This document shows positions 35,508-46,801 of a stretch of DNA of 64,000 nt, in pieces; position 1 is the first letter of the stretch; every line of letters begins with the position of its first letter. The DNA comes from Roseibium algicola. Lineage in GTDB: Bacteria; Pseudomonadota; Alphaproteobacteria; Rhizobiales; Stappiaceae. The stretch spans positions 1,302,001 through 1,366,000 of the forward strand of contig NZ_CP019630.1 in the NCBI RefSeq assembly GCF_001999245.1. The letters run 5' to 3'. A program made the position numbers and the translations under genes. Below the pieces are notes generated by a model, which made no database searches, was not told the DNA's origin, and saw only the letters and a list, made by a program, of their open reading frames with translations.

Positions 35508-36785
35508 TCACTCGAAGCCGACGAGGGCCTTGCGGCGTTTGCCGACAGAAATCGACAAACGGTCGTTGGCCTGAAGATCGCCGGTGGCAATGCGGCGGCG
35601 TGCGTCGTCGACGATCTGGTTGTTGAGGCGAACGCCTCCACCTTCCACCAGACGCCGTGCTTCGCCGTTGGATGCCGCGAAGCCAACGGCGACCACAAGC
35701 TCCAGAAGACCGAGACCGTCTGCCAGAATTTTCAGCGGCAGACTGTGGGTCGGTTCCAGGATCTCGCCTTCGCCCGAAAACAGGGCATCGCCTTGCTGCA
35801 AGGCGCCGCGCGCTTCTTCCGGGCCATGCACGATTGCCGTCACCTGGGTTGCCAGGATCTTCTTGGCTTCGTTCAGCTCCGCCCCTTCCAGCGCCGCCAG
35901 TCGTTCGATTTCGCTCATCGGCAGCTCGGTAAAAAGGCGCAGGCACTTGGCGACATCGGCATCAGCGGTGTTGCGCCAGAACTGCCAGAAGCCGAAGGGC
36001 GACAGGTGTTCGGGATGCAGCCACACGGCACCTGCAGCCGTCTTGCCCATCTTCGCACCGCTGGCGGTGGTCAGCAGAGGCACTGTCAGGCCGTGCAACT
36101 TGCGGCCATCACGGCGGCCAAGCTCGACACCATTGACGATGTTGCCCCATTGATCGGATCCACCGACCTGAAGCGCACAGTCATGACGCTTTGCCAACTC
36201 CAGAAAATCAACGGCCTGCAGCATCATGTAGCAGAACTCCAGAACCGTCAGCGGCATCTGAGCATCGAGGCGCGACTTGACGCTGTCGAAGGTCATCATG
36301 CGGTTGACGGTGAACTGGGAGCCATAGTCGCGGAGGAATTCCAGGAAGCGGAATTCATTGAGCCATTCCGCATTGTCGACCAGCAAAGCCCCATCTTCGC
36401 CGTTCATATCCACGAGACGCTCAACGGATCGTCGTATGCTCGCGATGTTGGCTGCGATCTGGCGTTCCTCCAGCATCGGCCGGGCATCCTTGCGGAAACT
36501 CGGATCGCCGATCTGACTTGTGCCACCGCCAAGCACGACGATGGGACGATGGCCGAGCTTCTGCAGCCAACGCATGGTCATCAACGGCATCAGATGGCCG
36601 ACATGAAGACTTGCCGCCGTGGCATCGAACCCGGCGTATGCGGTGATCGGCCCTTGTGACAGCGTCTGGTCGAGCGCCTCGATATCCGTGCATTGGTGCA
36701 CAAGACCACGTTCCAGAAGCACGGCAAGTGCTTCCGATTTGAGTTTTGTCGCCGGTTTTCCGGCTTCGATCATATGTCTGGTCAT
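35508..36785 (-). CDS. tyrS: Tyrosyl-tRNA synthetase
   Basis: 425 residues from ATG 36785, with AGGAAGCG nine bases upstream. Charges tRNA-Tyr. Class I signatures: HVGH at 61-64 and KMGKT at 245-249 (variant of KMSKS), QVGGSDQWGNI at 206-216 for tyrosine binding, and a C-terminal S4 RNA-binding domain (NGEARRLVEGGGVRLNNQIV). The untranslated leader holds a Tyr-rich peptide ORF and a terminator, pointing to attenuation control. Confidence 0.97.
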   Translation of the reverse strand: MTRHMIEAGKPATKLKSEALAVLLERGLVHQCTDIEALDQTLSQGPITAYAGFDATAASLHVGHLMPLMTMRWLQKLGHRPIVVLGGGTSQIGDPSFRKDARPMLEERQIAANIASIRRSVERLVDMNGEDGALLVDNAEWLNEFRFLEFLRDYGSQFTVNRMMTFDSVKSRLDAQMPLTVLEFCYMMLQAVDFLELAKRHDCALQVGGSDQWGNIVNGVELGRRDGRKLHGLTVPLLTTASGAKMGKTAAGAVWLHPEHLSPFGFWQFWRNTADADVAKCLRLFTELPMSEIERLAALEGAELNEAKKILATQVTAIVHGPEEARGALQQGDALFSGEGEILEPTHSLPLKILADGLGLLELVVAVGFAASNGEARRLVEGGGVRLNNQIVDDARRRIATGDLQANDRLSISVGKRRKALVGFE

Positions 36786-36833
36786 TTTTCGCTTCCTGGT
36801 TCCCCCGCCAGGAAGCTCGGGTCTCTAGAAACC

Positions 36834-36860
36834 AAAAAGCCGCCTGACGCGGCGGCTTTT
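36834..36860 (-). terminator. Attenuator hairpin in the tyrS leader
   Basis: On the minus strand AAAAGCCGCC, a GCGTCA loop, and GGCGGCTTTTT: a 10-bp stem with a U-run. It lies between the Tyr-rich leader ORF and tyrS. Its 5' arm (AGCCGCC) can alternatively pair with CGGCGGCT at the 3' end of the leader ORF (complement of 36893-36900). Confidence 0.8.
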
Positions 36861-36886
36861 GAGGTGTCTATGGGGTGAACAAGATC

Positions 36887-36952
36887 CTACGCAGCCGCCG
36901 GTATGTCGGTGACGTAATAAAAATACACGAAGGATGCGCTCATCTTGGTCAT
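36887..36952 (-). CDS. Putative tyrS leader peptide (tyrosine attenuation)
   Basis: A 21-codon ORF starting MTKMSAS, then F8-V9-Y10-F11-Y12-Y13, and ending DIPAAA before TAG. Three Tyr codons and two Phe codons fall in six positions. No ribosome-binding site precedes the ATG, consistent with leaderless translation if transcription starts at or next to it. The terminator follows 26 bases after the stop. I infer that stalling on Tyr codons frees GGCGGCT to form an antiterminator. The peptide itself probably has no other role. Confidence 0.65.
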   Translation of the reverse strand: MTKMSASFVYFYYVTDIPAAA

Positions 36953-36959
36953 GCCAGCT

Positions 36960-36988
36960 TAAATGCGTTAGGGCGGGAAAAGAGTCAA
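36960..36988 (-). promoter_or_regulatory. Candidate tyrS promoter giving a leaderless leader ORF
   Basis: TTGACT (36983-36988, minus), 17 bases, CATTTA (36960-36965). The -35 is good and the -10 weak. Transcription would begin near 36952-36953, at the leader ATG. Confidence 0.4.
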
Positions 36989-37114
36989 GCCTGTTGTGTT
37001 CGTGACGTCCCAGCCCCCCGGCAAGTGTAACCGGAATGCCTCAAGGCTGCGCGCGGTCAAGAAATTCCACCTGTCCCTGTGCGAAAGGCGTGCGCTTGCG
37101 CACGTCTGGCCGCG

Positions 37115-37699
37115 TTACGACAACCCGAGTTTCCGTTCGCCGCGATCCAGGATAACCGGAACGATCAGGTCTTCCTCGTCATCCAGATGGCGCATCAGGC
37201 CGGAGATCAGGGTGTCGCTGACACCGGCGAAACTGTCGGCCGCGCGGCGGATGGCATCGCGGTCTTTCGTCTGCAATTGCCCGAACAGCTTGTTGGCGCT
37301 CTTGATCACCGCCTCAATGCGATGATGAATCAGTTCGTGGTCGCCCTCCAGCAGCTCGAAGCCATCCACCAGGCGCTTTTCGGCTTCCATGAACACCGGG
37401 AAATAGTGCTCATCCTCGATCATGTGGTGGTGATGCAGCTCACTGAGAAACTGTTGCAGACGCGGGGCAAAGAGGTTGCCGAAACGGTTTACCGGGAGCC
37501 GTTGTTCGCGGAAGTCGGTCAGGATCGTATCCAGGTCAGCACCGAGCTGACGGAAGCCGTTATGCCGTGCGAGCCAGAATTCGGTCAGTGGGCCGAGGTT
37601 CCGGTGACCCGGCCAGTCTTCGCGCGGATGTTCTTTCAGAAGGAACAGCCACTCCTGCGGAAGTCCGGTCCGTTCATCCAGATTGGTGGTGTTGGTCAT
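37115..37699 (-). CDS. Hemerythrin HHE cation-binding domain protein
   Basis: 194 residues. Histidine/carboxylate ligands of a four-helix di-iron hemerythrin-like bundle are visible: H46 (ARHNGF), the H89-H92 run with E95 and H98 (IEDEHYF), H121 and H125 (DHELIHH), and H171 with acidic residues in HLDDEEDLIVP. Family members bind O2 or NO, or repair iron-sulfur centres. It is upstream of tyrS on the same strand but with a 330-base gap, so it is transcribed separately. No signal peptide. Confidence 0.85.
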   Translation of the reverse strand: MTNTTNLDERTGLPQEWLFLLKEHPREDWPGHRNLGPLTEFWLARHNGFRQLGADLDTILTDFREQRLPVNRFGNLFAPRLQQFLSELHHHHMIEDEHYFPVFMEAEKRLVDGFELLEGDHELIHHRIEAVIKSANKLFGQLQTKDRDAIRRAADSFAGVSDTLISGLMRHLDDEEDLIVPVILDRGERKLGLS

Positions 37700-41293: not shown

Positions 41294-42886
41294 CTACTCG
41301 GCAGCAGCCGGGGTCACTTCGGCCGGAGCCGGCTCGGTCCATTTCAGGACCGGCTTGCGAGCTGCACCCGTTTCGTCCAGACGGCGTCGCGGGGCAAGAT
41401 ACGGTGCACCGGAGAAGCGTTCCGTTTCGCCGCGCTTTGCGCTCATCACGAGATCGCGCATGGTGGCGACGAAAAGATCGAGCGCAGCCCGGCTTTCCGA
41501 TTCCGTCGGCTCGATCAGCATCGCGCCATGGACAACCAGCGGGAAGTACATGGTCATCGGATGATAGCCCTCGTCGATCATCGCCTTGGCGAAGTCGAGC
41601 GTGGTCACGCCGGTGTCCTTCAGGAAGCTGTCGTCGAACAGCACTTCGTGCATGCATGGACGCTCGCCAAAGGGCAGGCTCATCAGGTCCTGCAGGCCGA
41701 CGCGAATATAGTTCGCATTCAGCACCGCATCTTCAGACGCCTGCCGCAGACCGTCGGAGCCGTGGCTCATCATGTAGGACAGAGCCCGCACGTACATGCC
41801 CATCTGGCCGTGGAACGCGGTCATGCGGCCGAACGGCTGCTCGCCGTCCTTGGTGGCAGCTTCGGTTTCGACCAGTTCTACACCTTTTTCCGTCTTGCGG
41901 ATGAACGGCAGCGGCGCGAATGGAGCCAGTCTCTGGGACAGGACGACCGGACCGGAACCCGGGCCACCGCCGCCGTGAGGCGTCGAGAAGGTCTTGTGCA
42001 GGTTGATATGCATGGCGTCGACACCAAGATCCCCCGGGCGGGCCTTGCCGACGATGGCGTTGAAGTTGGCGCCATCGCAGTAGAAATAGGCATCCGCCTT
42101 GTGAATCAGATCGGCGATCTGCTTCACTTCCCGTTCGAACAGCCCGCAGGTGTTCGGGTTGGTCAGCATGATGCCGGCGATGTTGCCTTCGTGTTCGGCA
42201 ATGGTCTTCTTCAGTGCCTCCAGATCGACGGTCCCGTCGTCCTTGGCATCGATGTTGACGACCTTGTAACCCAAGAGCGCTGCCGTTGCCGGGTTGGTGC
42301 CATGAGCGCTTTCCGGCACCAGAACGATCTTCGGATCACGGCCGGCAGCGGTGTGGGCTGCCTTGATCGCCATCATGCCGCACAATTCGCCATGGGCACC
42401 GGCTTTCGGGCTCATTGCGACGGCGGAGGTGTTGGTGGACACCATCAGCCAGTGGGCAAGCGCATCGATCAGTTCCAGTGCGCCGGGCACCGAGGAGACC
42501 GGCTGAAGCGGATGGATGTCCGCGAAGCCCGGCAGACGGGCCATCTTCTCGTTGAGGCGCGGATTGTGCTTCATGGTGCACGAGCCGAGCGGATAGAGAC
42601 CGCTGTCGATGGCATAGTTGTTCCGCGACAGGCGCACATAGTGGCGCATGGCTTCCGGTTCGGCGAGGCCAGGCAGACCGATCTCGGCCTTGCGCTTGAA
42701 GCTGCCAAGCTCGAACTCGGCGCTTTCGTCCTCGTCGAGATCGACACCGGTTGTTTCCAGCGAGCCGAATTCGAAAATCAGCGGCTCTTCCATATCGAGA
42801 CCACGGTTGCCGGTGAAAGTCTTCGGGCGGAAAGCATCCCCGGCATCACCTGCTGCGGTCGGGCGGCCTTGCGTGTTCATGCTCAT
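41294..42886 (-). CDS. gcvPB: Glycine dehydrogenase (decarboxylating) subunit 2
   Basis: 530 residues, the C-terminal half of split P protein. PLP lysine around K298 in [26 protein letters not shown] is the preceding family motif. With GcvPA it decarboxylates glycine onto the H-protein lipoyl arm. Start overlaps the gcvPA stop by four bases. Alanine-rich C-terminal tail. Last gene of the operon. Confidence 0.96.
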
Positions 42887-44229
42887 GCCAGCACCTCCTT
42901 CAGCGCGTCCGCAAAGGCCGCGCGGTCTTCATCCGTATTGACTTCGGTCGACGCGACGACCAACAGGTTCGCGAGATCCTTGTTGCCCGGCTCCAGTCGA
43001 GAAACCGGCAGGCCCGCGAGAACGCCCCGTTCGGCCAGTTGCTCGACCACATCCTCGGCCACCTTCGGCAGCGCAATCGTGAACTCGTTGAAATAGGCCG
43101 AGTTCAGAACCTCGACACCGGGCACGTCGGCAAGAAGCTTCTTCAGCTTCACCGCGTTGCCGTGGTTGATGCGGGCGAGTTTGGTCAACCCGGCCTGCCC
43201 CAGCAGCGACATGTGAATGGTGAAGGCAAGGCAGCAGAGACCGGAGTTGGTGCAGATGTTGGACGTTGCCTTGTCGCGGCGGATATGCTGCTCGCGGGTC
43301 GACAGCGTCAGCACGAAACCGCGCTTGCCTTCCGCATCCACCGTCTCACCGCAGAGCCGGCCCGGCATCTGGCGGACATATTGCTGGCGGGTGGCGAAGA
43401 GACCGACGTAAGGACCACCGAAGTTGAGGCCGTTGCCGATGGACTGGCCTTCACCGACCACGATGTCGGCGCCTTGTGTTCCCGGCGGTTCGATCAGGCC
43501 GAGCGACACCACTTCGGTGAAGACCGCGATCAGCAGCGCCTTGTGCTGGTGCGCCTTTTCGGCAATCGGCTTCAGGTCGATCAGCTGGCCGTAGAACGAC
43601 GGCGACTGGACGACAACGCAAGACGTCTCGTCATCGATCTGTGACAGGATGTCTTCGGTGCCCGTCGGGTCTGCCGGGAGGCTGACGACCCGATCGCCGG
43701 CCATGTTGGACAGGCCTTCGACGACTTCCCGGTACTGCGGATGCAGCCCGCCGGAAAGCACGGCCTTGTTGCGCTTGGTCACCCGGTGCGCCATCAGCAC
43801 GGCTTCACCGGTGCCGGTGGAGCCGTCATACATGGACGCGTTGGCGACATCCATTGCGGTAAGGCGCGCTACCTGGGTCTGGAACTCGAACAGGTACTGA
43901 AGCGTACCTTGCGTGATTTCCGGCTGATAGGGCGTATAGGAGGTCAGGAACTCCGACCGCTGGATCAGGTGGTCGACTGTTGCCGGCACATGGTGCTTGT
44001 AGGCACCTGCGCCGACGAAGAACGGAACGGAGCCGGCCGCAGTGTTCTTCGATGCCATGGCCGAGAGCTTGCGCTCCACTTCCATTTCGCTGGCTCGTTT
44101 GGGAAGGTCGAGCAGACCCTTCATGCGAACGTCTTCAGGGATATCCGCAAAGAGTTCATCGACGGATTTGACGCCGACCCGCGCGAGCATGTCGCTGCGG
44201 TCGGTATCGTTCAAAGGCAGGTAGCGCAT
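42883..44229 (-). CDS. gcvPA: Glycine dehydrogenase (decarboxylating) subunit 1
   Basis: 448 residues from ATG 44229 ([11 protein letters not shown]), with GGGAG upstream; the 16-codon extension is rejected. N-terminal half of the split P protein: [62 protein letters not shown] are hallmark segments. It forms the alpha2beta2 P protein with GcvPB. A split P protein is common in alphaproteobacteria and Gram-positives. Confidence 0.96.
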
Positions 44230-44404
44230 CAGGCAGCTCCCAAGGGTTTGATCAAAAATCGGACCGGCGAAAACCACGCTCTCGCTTCATCAGCCCGGAA
44301 CCGGAGAACTGACAAGCTTCCGGATACGGGCTCCCCGTTTCCTGCTCGGCGCGGTGGCGCCGTGCAGACACACAGAGAAGAGAACTGGTCACCATCCAGA
44401 ACAG

Positions 44405-45329: not shown

Positions 45330-46481
45330 TTATGCTTTGGGTTTGCGGTAATACCGGTTCGGAACAAACGGCATGTCCGCGACGGTAGCGGGCAAGCGCT
45401 TGCCTCTGACGATCAATTCAAGTGGCGTGCCAGTTTCGGAGTGCTCCACCGGGACATAGCCCATTGCGATCGGGGCACCCACGGTCGGTGCGAAACCGCC
45501 GGATGTCACGGTGCCGATCACCGGCCCGTCGGGCAGTGCGATCTCGGCCCCTTCCCGCGCAGGTGCCTTGCCATCGAGGCGCAGGCCGACGCGGACGCGG
45601 CCCGGTCCCTTTTCGAGTTCACCCTGAATGCGTTCGGCGCCAGGAAAGCCGCCTTCTTCTCGGCGGCGCTTCTGCATGCAGAAGGTGATGGCGCCTTCGA
45701 CGGGAGACGTCATCTCGTCAATGTCGTGTCCGTAGAGGCACAGCCCTGCCTCAAGACGCAGGCTGTCGCGGGCCCCGAGCCCAATCGGTTCGACCCTGTC
45801 GTCGGCGAGCAGTGCACGGGCAATCGCTTCAGCAGCACCGGCAGGCACGGACATCTCCACGCCGTCCTCGCCGGTATAGCCGGCACGGGCAACGTGGCAG
45901 TCGATACCGTCAAACTCCATCGGTGCGGCGGCCATGAAGCCAAGTTCGGCCGCCTTGGGCGCATGTGCTGCGACCGCAGCCACGGCTTCCGGTCCCTGAA
46001 CCGCGATCAATGCACGATCGTCGATCACTTCAAGGGTCACGTTTTCAGGCAGTCTGTCGCGGAAATGGGCGTAGTCGACATCCTTGCGAGAGGCATTGAC
46101 CACCAGCATCAGCTTGCCGTCTTCTGCTTCGGACAGCGGCCGGGTGACCATCAGATCGTCGATGATGCCGCCTTCGTCGTTGAGCAGCACCGTGTAGCGC
46201 TGACGGCCGTGGCCAAGTTCGACGAAATTGGACGGAGTCAGCGCTTCCAGAGCCCGGGCCGTCGTTTCGTGATCGGGACCGATCAACAGGGCCTGGCCCA
46301 TGTGGGAGACGTCGAAAAGGCCGGCTTTCGTGCGGGTCTGCTGGTGCTCGGCCATGATGCCGGCCTTGTACTGCACGGGCATGGAATAGCCGGCAAACGG
46401 CACCATGCGTGCACCCAGTTCCACATGAAGGTCGTGAAGAGGCGTTTGTTTCAGATCTTCGTCTGCAACGGTTTCCGCCAT
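45330..46481 (-). CDS. gcvT: Glycine cleavage system aminomethyltransferase (T protein)
   Basis: 383 residues. Transfers the methylene unit from H protein to tetrahydrofolate, releasing ammonia. Visible: FAGYSMPVQY near the N-terminus, DVSHMGQ, the catalytic loop RAGYTGEDGVEMSVP and RDSLRLEAGLCLYGHDID. First gene of the operon; its leader carries the tandem glycine riboswitch. Confidence 0.97.
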   Translation of the reverse strand: MAETVADEDLKQTPLHDLHVELGARMVPFAGYSMPVQYKAGIMAEHQQTRTKAGLFDVSHMGQALLIGPDHETTARALEALTPSNFVELGHGRQRYTVLLNDEGGIIDDLMVTRPLSEAEDGKLMLVVNASRKDVDYAHFRDRLPENVTLEVIDDRALIAVQGPEAVAAVAAHAPKAAELGFMAAAPMEFDGIDCHVARAGYTGEDGVEMSVPAGAAEAIARALLADDRVEPIGLGARDSLRLEAGLCLYGHDIDEMTSPVEGAITFCMQKRRREEGGFPGAERIQGELEKGPGRVRVGLRLDGKAPAREGAEIALPDGPVIGTVTSGGFAPTVGAPIAMGYVPVEHSETGTPLELIVRGKRLPATVADMPFVPNRYYRKPKA

Positions 46482-46534: not shown

Positions 46535-46752
46535 TGATCCGTCTGCACCCCCTCTGTCCGAGTACCTGAGAGATTTCCCGACCGGCGCCGATGACGCCTT
46601 TCGGTTACTCCTTCGGTGAGCAGTCCGCAAACCCACTTGCGGAGCACTGCTTTCCAGAGCGTTGCAGTTCATGCGGTCCTTCTGCCTGAGAGTTTCCGGG
46701 GCGGTTGCTCCTTCGGCGCCAGGATCCTTTCACCCGGCCTCTCCCGCATAAA
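46535..46752 (-). ncRNA. Tandem glycine riboswitch upstream of gcvT
   Basis: Two similar aptamers in tandem on the minus strand. Aptamer I (about 46673-46750) has GCGGGAGAGG, CGCCGAAGGAGCAA and AACTCTCAGGCAGAAGGACC. Aptamer II (about 46535-46640) has CACCGAAGGAGTAACC and AATCTCTCAGGTACTCGGACAGAGG. This is the classic cooperative glycine sensor that turns on the cleavage system when glycine is in excess. The end points are approximate; I did not fold the expression platform. Confidence 0.93.
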
Positions 46753-46801
46753 CATTGACGTGTTTCCACGCCAACCGGGGGACGACCCCGATTGGGGCCG
46801 G

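Follow-up and report, generated by a model that had tools for sequence, protein, structure and literature searches.

In the alphaproteobacterium Roseibium algicola (Stappiaceae) a gene for a tyrosyl-tRNA synthetase lies behind a short, tyrosine-rich reading frame and a terminator-like hairpin. This raises the question of whether translation of the short frame governs transcription of the gene, as the initial annotation of the locus had proposed, and when such a synthetase would be made. We analysed the locus within a window of 64,000 nt (NZ_CP019630.1, positions 1,302,001 to 1,366,000) and compared it with related genes. In our judgement the element is very probably, with a likelihood of about 85%, a ribosome-mediated transcription attenuator that turns on an auxiliary synthetase, TyrS2, when charged tRNA-Tyr is short. 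The parts of the element, their conservation and register, their co-occurrence with TyrS2 and the mutual exclusion of the pairings can be read directly from the sequences.

The leader locus and its second tyrosyl-tRNA synthetase

On the minus strand, a TTGACT box, 17 bases, a CATTTA box, 7 bases, a reading frame of 21 codons, 26 bases, a terminator, a second hairpin and tyrS follow one another (Table 1). The frame runs from an ATG at 36952-36950 to a TAG at 36889-36887 and has tyrosine at codons 10, 12 and 13, in agreement with the tyrosine-rich ORF that had been described, and its end indeed lies 26 bases before the terminator stem. The terminator, AAAAGCCGCC-GCGTCA-GGCGGCTTTT (36860-36835, with the T run reaching 36834), precedes tyrS as expected. 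The claimed complementarity is also present, between region 2 at the end of the leader ORF and AGCCGCCG (36857-36850) in the 5' arm of the terminator. By itself the terminator scan is not telling: it gives two sites, the smaller lying within the larger, and shuffled sequences give 0.9 ± 1.0. The fold of 36955-36825 has an energy of -50.4 kcal/mol (z = -5.28), which none of 200 shuffles equalled. In this fold the ATCTTG behind the stop codon pairs with CAAGAT (36947-36942) near the leader start, forming a candidate protector helix, 1:2.

Table 1. Elements of the tyrS2 leader locus; positions refer to the window.
Feature	Position	Strand	Basis
-35-like box, TTGACT	36983..36988	-	TTGAC 34-38 nt 5' of the leader ATG in 66/66 distinct sequences
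-10-like box, CATTTA	36960..36965	-	7 nt 5' of the leader ATG; position kept, sequence degenerate
Leader ORF, 21 codons, peptide MTKMSASFVYFYYVTDIPAAA, probably leaderless	36887..36952	-	leader in 66/66 upstream sequences, 48 distinct peptides
Putative sensing codons, Tyr10-Phe11-Tyr12-Tyr13	36914..36925	-	Tyr run in all 66 leaders
Region 2, CGGCGGCT, antiterminator 5' strand, end of leader ORF	36893..36900	-	register; pairs with region 3 in constrained folds
ATCTTG 3' of the stop codon, strand of candidate protector helix 1:2	36880..36885	-	paired in the fold of 36955-36825
Region 3, terminator 5' arm and antiterminator 3' strand	36850..36860	-	terminator scan, alignment
Region 4, terminator 3' arm and T run	36834..36844	-	terminator scan, alignment
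Region 5, GCTTCCTGG, 5' arm of hairpin over the tyrS2 Shine-Dalgarno site	36808..36816	-	local folds, alignment
Region 6, CCAGGAAGC, 3' arm holding Shine-Dalgarno AGGAAG (36797-36792)	36791..36799	-	covariation counts
tyrS2, second tyrosyl-tRNA synthetase, 425 aa	35508..36785	-	TIGR00234, PF00579, clade

The gene behind the terminator encodes a full tyrosine--tRNA ligase, which reaches 353 bits with TIGR00234 (cut-off 113.8) and also matches PF00579. The initial annotation was right to call it tyrS, but it is the second copy, of a separate lineage, and not the only tyrS. The same genome carries TyrS1 (G000:C1:5450691-5451935), which is 49% identical to TyrS2. An ordinary single-copy tyrS is ruled out by this second copy and by the separate clade of TyrS2. 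Within the family TyrS2 was found in 66 of 87 genomes (matches above 600 bits), distributed over genera g1, g4, g5 and g6, and 20 family genomes of g2, g3 and g7 have a single tyrS each. The 51 named TyrS2 loci belong mostly to Roseibium/Labrenzia, Pannonibacter and Pseudovibrio, with a few other names; the protein P0051 bears the name Polymorphum gilvum. HIGH-like (HVGH, HAGH, HIGH) and KMGKT/S motifs are present at all 117 TyrS2 loci.

For the phylogeny 74 proteins were used, 15 of 66 TyrS2 sequences, 20 TyrS1 sequences from Stappiaceae and 39 others, and the tree was rooted at its midpoint. The TyrS2 proteins form one clade (100/99) adjoined by P0071, with 63% identity (100/99), and TyrS1 is placed elsewhere, among other alphaproteobacterial tyrS. 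The simplest reading of the tree is a single acquisition of tyrS2 from outside; as the root is only a midpoint root, an old duplication followed by losses is also possible. As a second full-length gene of separate lineage, TyrS2 appears to qualify as an auxiliary synthetase. Such a spare enzyme would be made when TyrS1 fails to charge tRNA-Tyr, owing to starvation, damage or an inhibitor, and by likeness to Streptomyces one may guess that TyrS2 is resistant to an inhibitor. One genome of g6, G016 (L174, G016:C1:3415500-3420500), retains the leader, the terminator and the hairpin over the ribosome site, behind which only a tyrS2 remnant with internal stops and 36% identity over residues 262-424 is left; G016 also has an intact TyrS1-like gene. 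The remnant suggests that TyrS2 can be lost.

Conservation of the leader, its register and its putative start

In all 117 TyrS2 loci that were examined, the 360 nt upstream contain a short ORF in which Tyr codons are clustered; many of these loci represent the same genome, present in both of two collections. Removal of identical stretches left 66 distinct upstream sequences, and every one of them contains the leader ORF, two to three clustered Tyr codons, the terminator hairpin and TTGAC. Since the same parts recur in all 66, an origin by chance is excluded. The tyrosine run reads YFYY in 44 leaders, YYY in 17, YYF in three and YY in two; overall, tyrosine accounts for 193 of the 1372 leader codons after the start, as TAT (133) or TAC (60).

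The element coincides with TyrS2. A covariance model, R1, which was built on 31 of the 66 sequences and spans the Tyr run to the terminator, matches 67 of the 87 family genomes, namely the 66 with TyrS2 and G016, and none of the 20 family genomes without TyrS2. Under strict filters, with which weak matches are lost, it found 6 of 297 genomes of the order, all Stappiaceae, and one of 385 genomes of the class, the source genome itself. A leader with a Tyr run was not found within 400 nt upstream of tyrS in 29 relatives outside the family, and none lies within 400 nt upstream of TyrS1 in the source genome. It is likewise absent from 19 of 20 Stappiaceae TyrS1 loci, the source genome included. On these two sets of loci we rejected a Tyr leader common to ordinary tyrS genes. 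Upstream of TyrS1 at L166 (g5), positions -266 to -155 hold a short frame that ends in DMYYSV; it has two Tyr codons and is probably the end of another gene, further upstream.

The last Tyr codon and the antiterminator core are 15 nt apart in 62 of the 66 sequences, 14 nt in one and 18 nt in three (L064, L065 and L127); these three have Phe at the third position of the run, hence the longer spacing. The stop codon varies in its position relative to the start of the core, at +9 (47 sequences), +15 (9), +16 (1), +24 (3) and -3 (6). The leaders with the stop at -3, L064, L065, L127, L131, L074 and L080, end early and with another sequence, and GGCGGC stays in place. Because the distance between Tyr codons and core is constant while the stop codon moves, the conserved trait seems to be stalling at the Tyr codons rather than the end of the peptide.

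The core of the terminator stem is found in all 66 sequences, with one mismatch in one row, and 61 of them have at least five T in a stretch of eight nucleotides whose first two are the final T residues of GGCGGCTT. A poor T run behind a retained terminator hairpin is seen in L064, L065, L127, L074 and L080. In L064-type sequences an outer stem, GAACCA/TGGTTC, is discernible by eye around the terminator hairpin. The initial annotation had named conserved Tyr codons and covarying arms in relatives as support. The ORF, the Tyr codons, the hairpin and the promoter spacing are conserved in the alignment, but no covariation is visible among the arms of regions 2, 3 and 4, which are nearly invariant in all 66 sequences. 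As these arms hardly vary, covariation neither supports nor opposes the terminator and antiterminator; little freedom to vary is to be expected in a strand that has two alternative partners.

Of the promoter proposed earlier, TTGACT-N17-CATTTA, TTGAC recurs at a similar distance from the leader ATG in all 66 sequences and the -10-like box keeps its position but not its sequence, but a strict promoter scan of 36500-37400 returned no promoter; the call therefore rests on conservation. The distance between TTGAC and the leader ATG is 36 nt in 40 sequences; for L060 it was counted from an inner ATG, because the longest frame would start inside the -10 box. Conservation is slight in columns -60 to -40 (0.13 bits), and the ATG is directly preceded by C in nearly all sequences (1.89 bits). 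Shine-Dalgarno matches ahead of the leader ORF are at about background level in the 66 sequences and none is seen by eye at the leader ATG itself, which agrees with the claim that it has no such site. The spacing, the preceding C and the background level of Shine-Dalgarno matches would fit transcription from the first base of the leader ATG, and the leader mRNA is probably leaderless.

Predicted folding of the leader RNA and alternative readings

According to the proposed mechanism, transcription would start at or beside the leader ATG, so that the leader mRNA would be leaderless. If a ribosome were held up at the Tyr codons, region 2 would stay free and would pair with region 3 once the latter has been made. 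Formation of 2:3 would block the terminator 3:4 and RNA polymerase would proceed into tyrS2. With ample Tyr-tRNA the ribosome would instead reach the stop codon and cover region 2, and the terminator would form. The transcript start, the stalling, the readthrough and the role of the second hairpin, 5:6, are what we infer for this locus.

Full-length equilibrium folds retain the terminator in the three rows displayed, and leave the Shine-Dalgarno site of tyrS2 mostly closed in all four ribosome states; the switch therefore would need the order of synthesis. For this reason RNAs ending after region 3 were folded, and the leader was masked as far as 12 nt beyond the first base of the A-site codon. 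In these constrained folds the antiterminator 2:3 forms in 66/66 sequences when the ribosome is placed at either the first or the last Tyr codon, and in 0/66 when it is placed at the stop codon. Masks reaching 9-18 nt beyond that base gave the same outcome; a 21-nt mask left the antiterminator in 66/66 for the first Tyr codon and in 5/66 for the last. Constrained folding thus predicts, as originally suggested, an antiterminator that is free on stalling and masked at the stop.

Without a ribosome the antiterminator forms in 42 of the 66 truncated RNAs. Hence, a protector helix 1:2 is not a general feature, and in many species readthrough may occur when the leader is not translated. The textbook trp leader differs in this respect. 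A cross-species swap test of helix 1:2 was weak (50/2000), and together with the folds without a ribosome it led us to reject this helix as a general protector.

Local folds place hairpin 5:6 directly 5' of tyrS2 in all 66 sequences (36816-36791 in the window). Calculated over the 45 nt before the start codon, 62 of 66 sequences have a mostly paired Shine-Dalgarno site, with a mean pairing probability above 0.5, and the mean is 0.81; for comparison, 20 TyrS1 loci have a mean of 0.33, and the site is mostly paired in 4 of 12 window genes with strong sites. The fold energies are modest relative to shuffles, with a mean z of -1.99 (range -5.9 to +0.5). The alignment of 66 rows (63 distinct) was also examined for covariation, the tested helix being the consensus fold of the same alignment. 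In 84.8% of cells the partners pair, compared with 76.4 ± 1.4% in shuffles; both sides have changed in 37 cells (shuffles 16.6 ± 3.2), and a covariation score of 0.375 compares with 0.235 ± 0.021 (0/500 shuffles in each case). The numbers of pairs with change (4) and of further pair types (7) are not above the shuffles. Thus, three of five measures exceed all 500 shuffles, which is consistent with covariation of 5:6, and sliding the pairing by one column lowers it to 56-62%. The hairpin may add a translational layer and would probably keep the translation of leaked transcripts low.

A further reading, which we regard as tentative and on the whole unlikely, makes the locus a two-layer switch of transcription attenuation and translation control, in which the formation of 2:3 would free region 4 to pair with region 5, and this pairing would open the Shine-Dalgarno hairpin. 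The pairing chain would then be 2:3, 3:4, 4:5 and 5:6, with translation alone being controlled where the T run is poor. Besides the conservation of 5:6, its covariation on three of five measures and the five loci with a poor T run, predicted duplexes of six to eight pairs between the terminator loop and 3' arm and region 5 (5' arm and loop of 5:6) speak for it, in 20 combinations of the 66 rows, for instance GCGUAGG with CCUACGC in L074 and L080. Native 4:5 combinations pair better than swapped ones, with 52 of 10000 permutations doing as well (19 combinations, not corrected for relatedness), but this result could stem from relatedness. When region 3 is removed, more than four of the expected 4:5 pairs appear in only 6/66 sequences, and more than four of the expected 5:6 pairs stay in 52/66. 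Joined into a leaderless, Tyr-sensing attenuator with two switches in series that controls an acquired, inducible spare synthetase, and acts on translation alone without a T run, the reading becomes somewhat less likely again; the same low standing applies to its corollary that TyrS2 is a spare for times when the housekeeping enzyme fails or is inhibited.

Two other explanations leave no part to the supply of charged tRNA. The leader peptide itself might arrest the ribosome or act in trans, like peTrpL of Sinorhizobium, in which case Tyr-tRNA would not be the signal. The conserved end YVTDI(P/S)AAA in most Roseibium relatives would fit such a peptide, but the six leaders with the stop at -3 have lost it and kept the Tyr codons, with the RNA register within 3 nt, and base pairing accounts for the extra conservation; we consider this improbable. 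A plain terminator of an upstream transcript followed by an unregulated promoter, with the ORF as a by-product, is more improbable still. Terminators between genes are common, but here the promoter, leader, Tyr codons and hairpin hold their mutual distances across genera, and the sequence further upstream differs. Finally, tyrosine genes stand under T-boxes in other bacteria, as parts of PMC1262725 describe, which speaks for a T-box or another known riboswitch. No Rfam family reaches its gathering score at this locus, no T-box does so anywhere in the window, and no T-box family occurs even among the weak matches of 36700-37050, all of which are below gathering scores. These results rule such an element out, and we assign it next to no weight. 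The Rfam family Phe_leader (RF01859) gave 19.4 bits, below its threshold of 55 bits. At another place in the window, 46664-46756 on the minus strand, lies an ordinary glycine riboswitch aptamer (RF00504, 66.3 bits), and of the ORFs 3' of it, the one at 45330-46481 looks like gcvT and the one at 42883-44277 like a glycine dehydrogenase subunit gene.

Relation to known attenuators

The preferred reading, attenuation of tyrS2 by ribosomes waiting for charged tRNA-Tyr, adds to a known group, as leader-peptide attenuation of synthetase genes has been described before. The auxiliary trpS of Streptomyces coelicolor is said to involve indolmycin and a leader with Trp codons. A passage in PMC4787780 cites Vecchione and Sello (2010) for an auxiliary, antibiotic-resistant trpS behind ribosome-mediated attenuation. 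As far as that passage goes, both cases have a second synthetase gene behind such an attenuator; the trpS system responds to Trp and belongs to Actinobacteria, whereas the one described here would respond to Tyr in Alphaproteobacteria and has a probably leaderless leader and a Shine-Dalgarno hairpin. The leader of pheST, named pheM, contains Phe codons. Parts of PMC11802643 and PMC1262725 describe pheST of Escherichia coli as a synthetase operon under attenuation, like tyrS2, but it is a housekeeping operon and specific for Phe. The Bacillus paralogue hisS*, for which a section of PMC2965389 (Naville and Gautheret 2010) predicts a leader peptide of the matching amino acid, resembles tyrS2 in being a paralogue with a cognate leader and differs in amino acid (His) and phylum (Firmicutes). 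Candidate attenuators of trpS2 and leuS in Streptomyces are listed in a part of PMC1262725.

The initial annotation had pointed to the leaderless trpL of Sinorhizobium, and this precedent holds: according to passages in PMC7298713 and PMC10117765, the ATG of the leader ORF forms the 5' end of rnTrpL, the trpLE leader RNA of Sinorhizobium meliloti. The tyrS2 leader would share with trpLE, rnTrpL and peTrpL an alphaproteobacterial attenuator whose RNA starts at the leader ATG, which is known there and inferred here; unlike it, the Sinorhizobium system controls trpE with Trp codons. A Tyr codon also occurs in the aroR leader (Phe-Tyr-Phe) of Corynebacterium glutamicum, but aroR controls the aroF operon and is unresponsive to Tyr, as stated in a part of PMC11802643. 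TyrZ is, like TyrS2, an additional tyrosyl-tRNA synthetase, used under stress; the passage on it in PMC9437257 concerns substrate choice and makes no mention of attenuation.

In the open-licence literature we found no report of a Tyr-codon attenuator of a tyrS, no paper on tyrS in Stappiaceae and none on an alphaproteobacterial synthetase under leader-peptide transcription attenuation. On this ground we regard a Tyr-codon attenuator of tyrS as new, in line with the earlier impression that none had been described. The new elements are Tyr, a second synthetase of separate lineage, a probably leaderless leader and the Shine-Dalgarno hairpin.

Leader-peptide attenuation, described for a few other synthetases, would thereby extend to that for tyrosine, in Alphaproteobacteria and apparently on a leaderless mRNA. 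Hairpin 5:6 would make the locus a compact system in which to ask if one stalled ribosome controls termination and initiation in the same transcript. The switch appears tied to a second synthetase of separate lineage, with a logic as for the antibiotic-resistant auxiliary trpS, and therefore would predict when these bacteria use TyrS2 and make its purpose testable.
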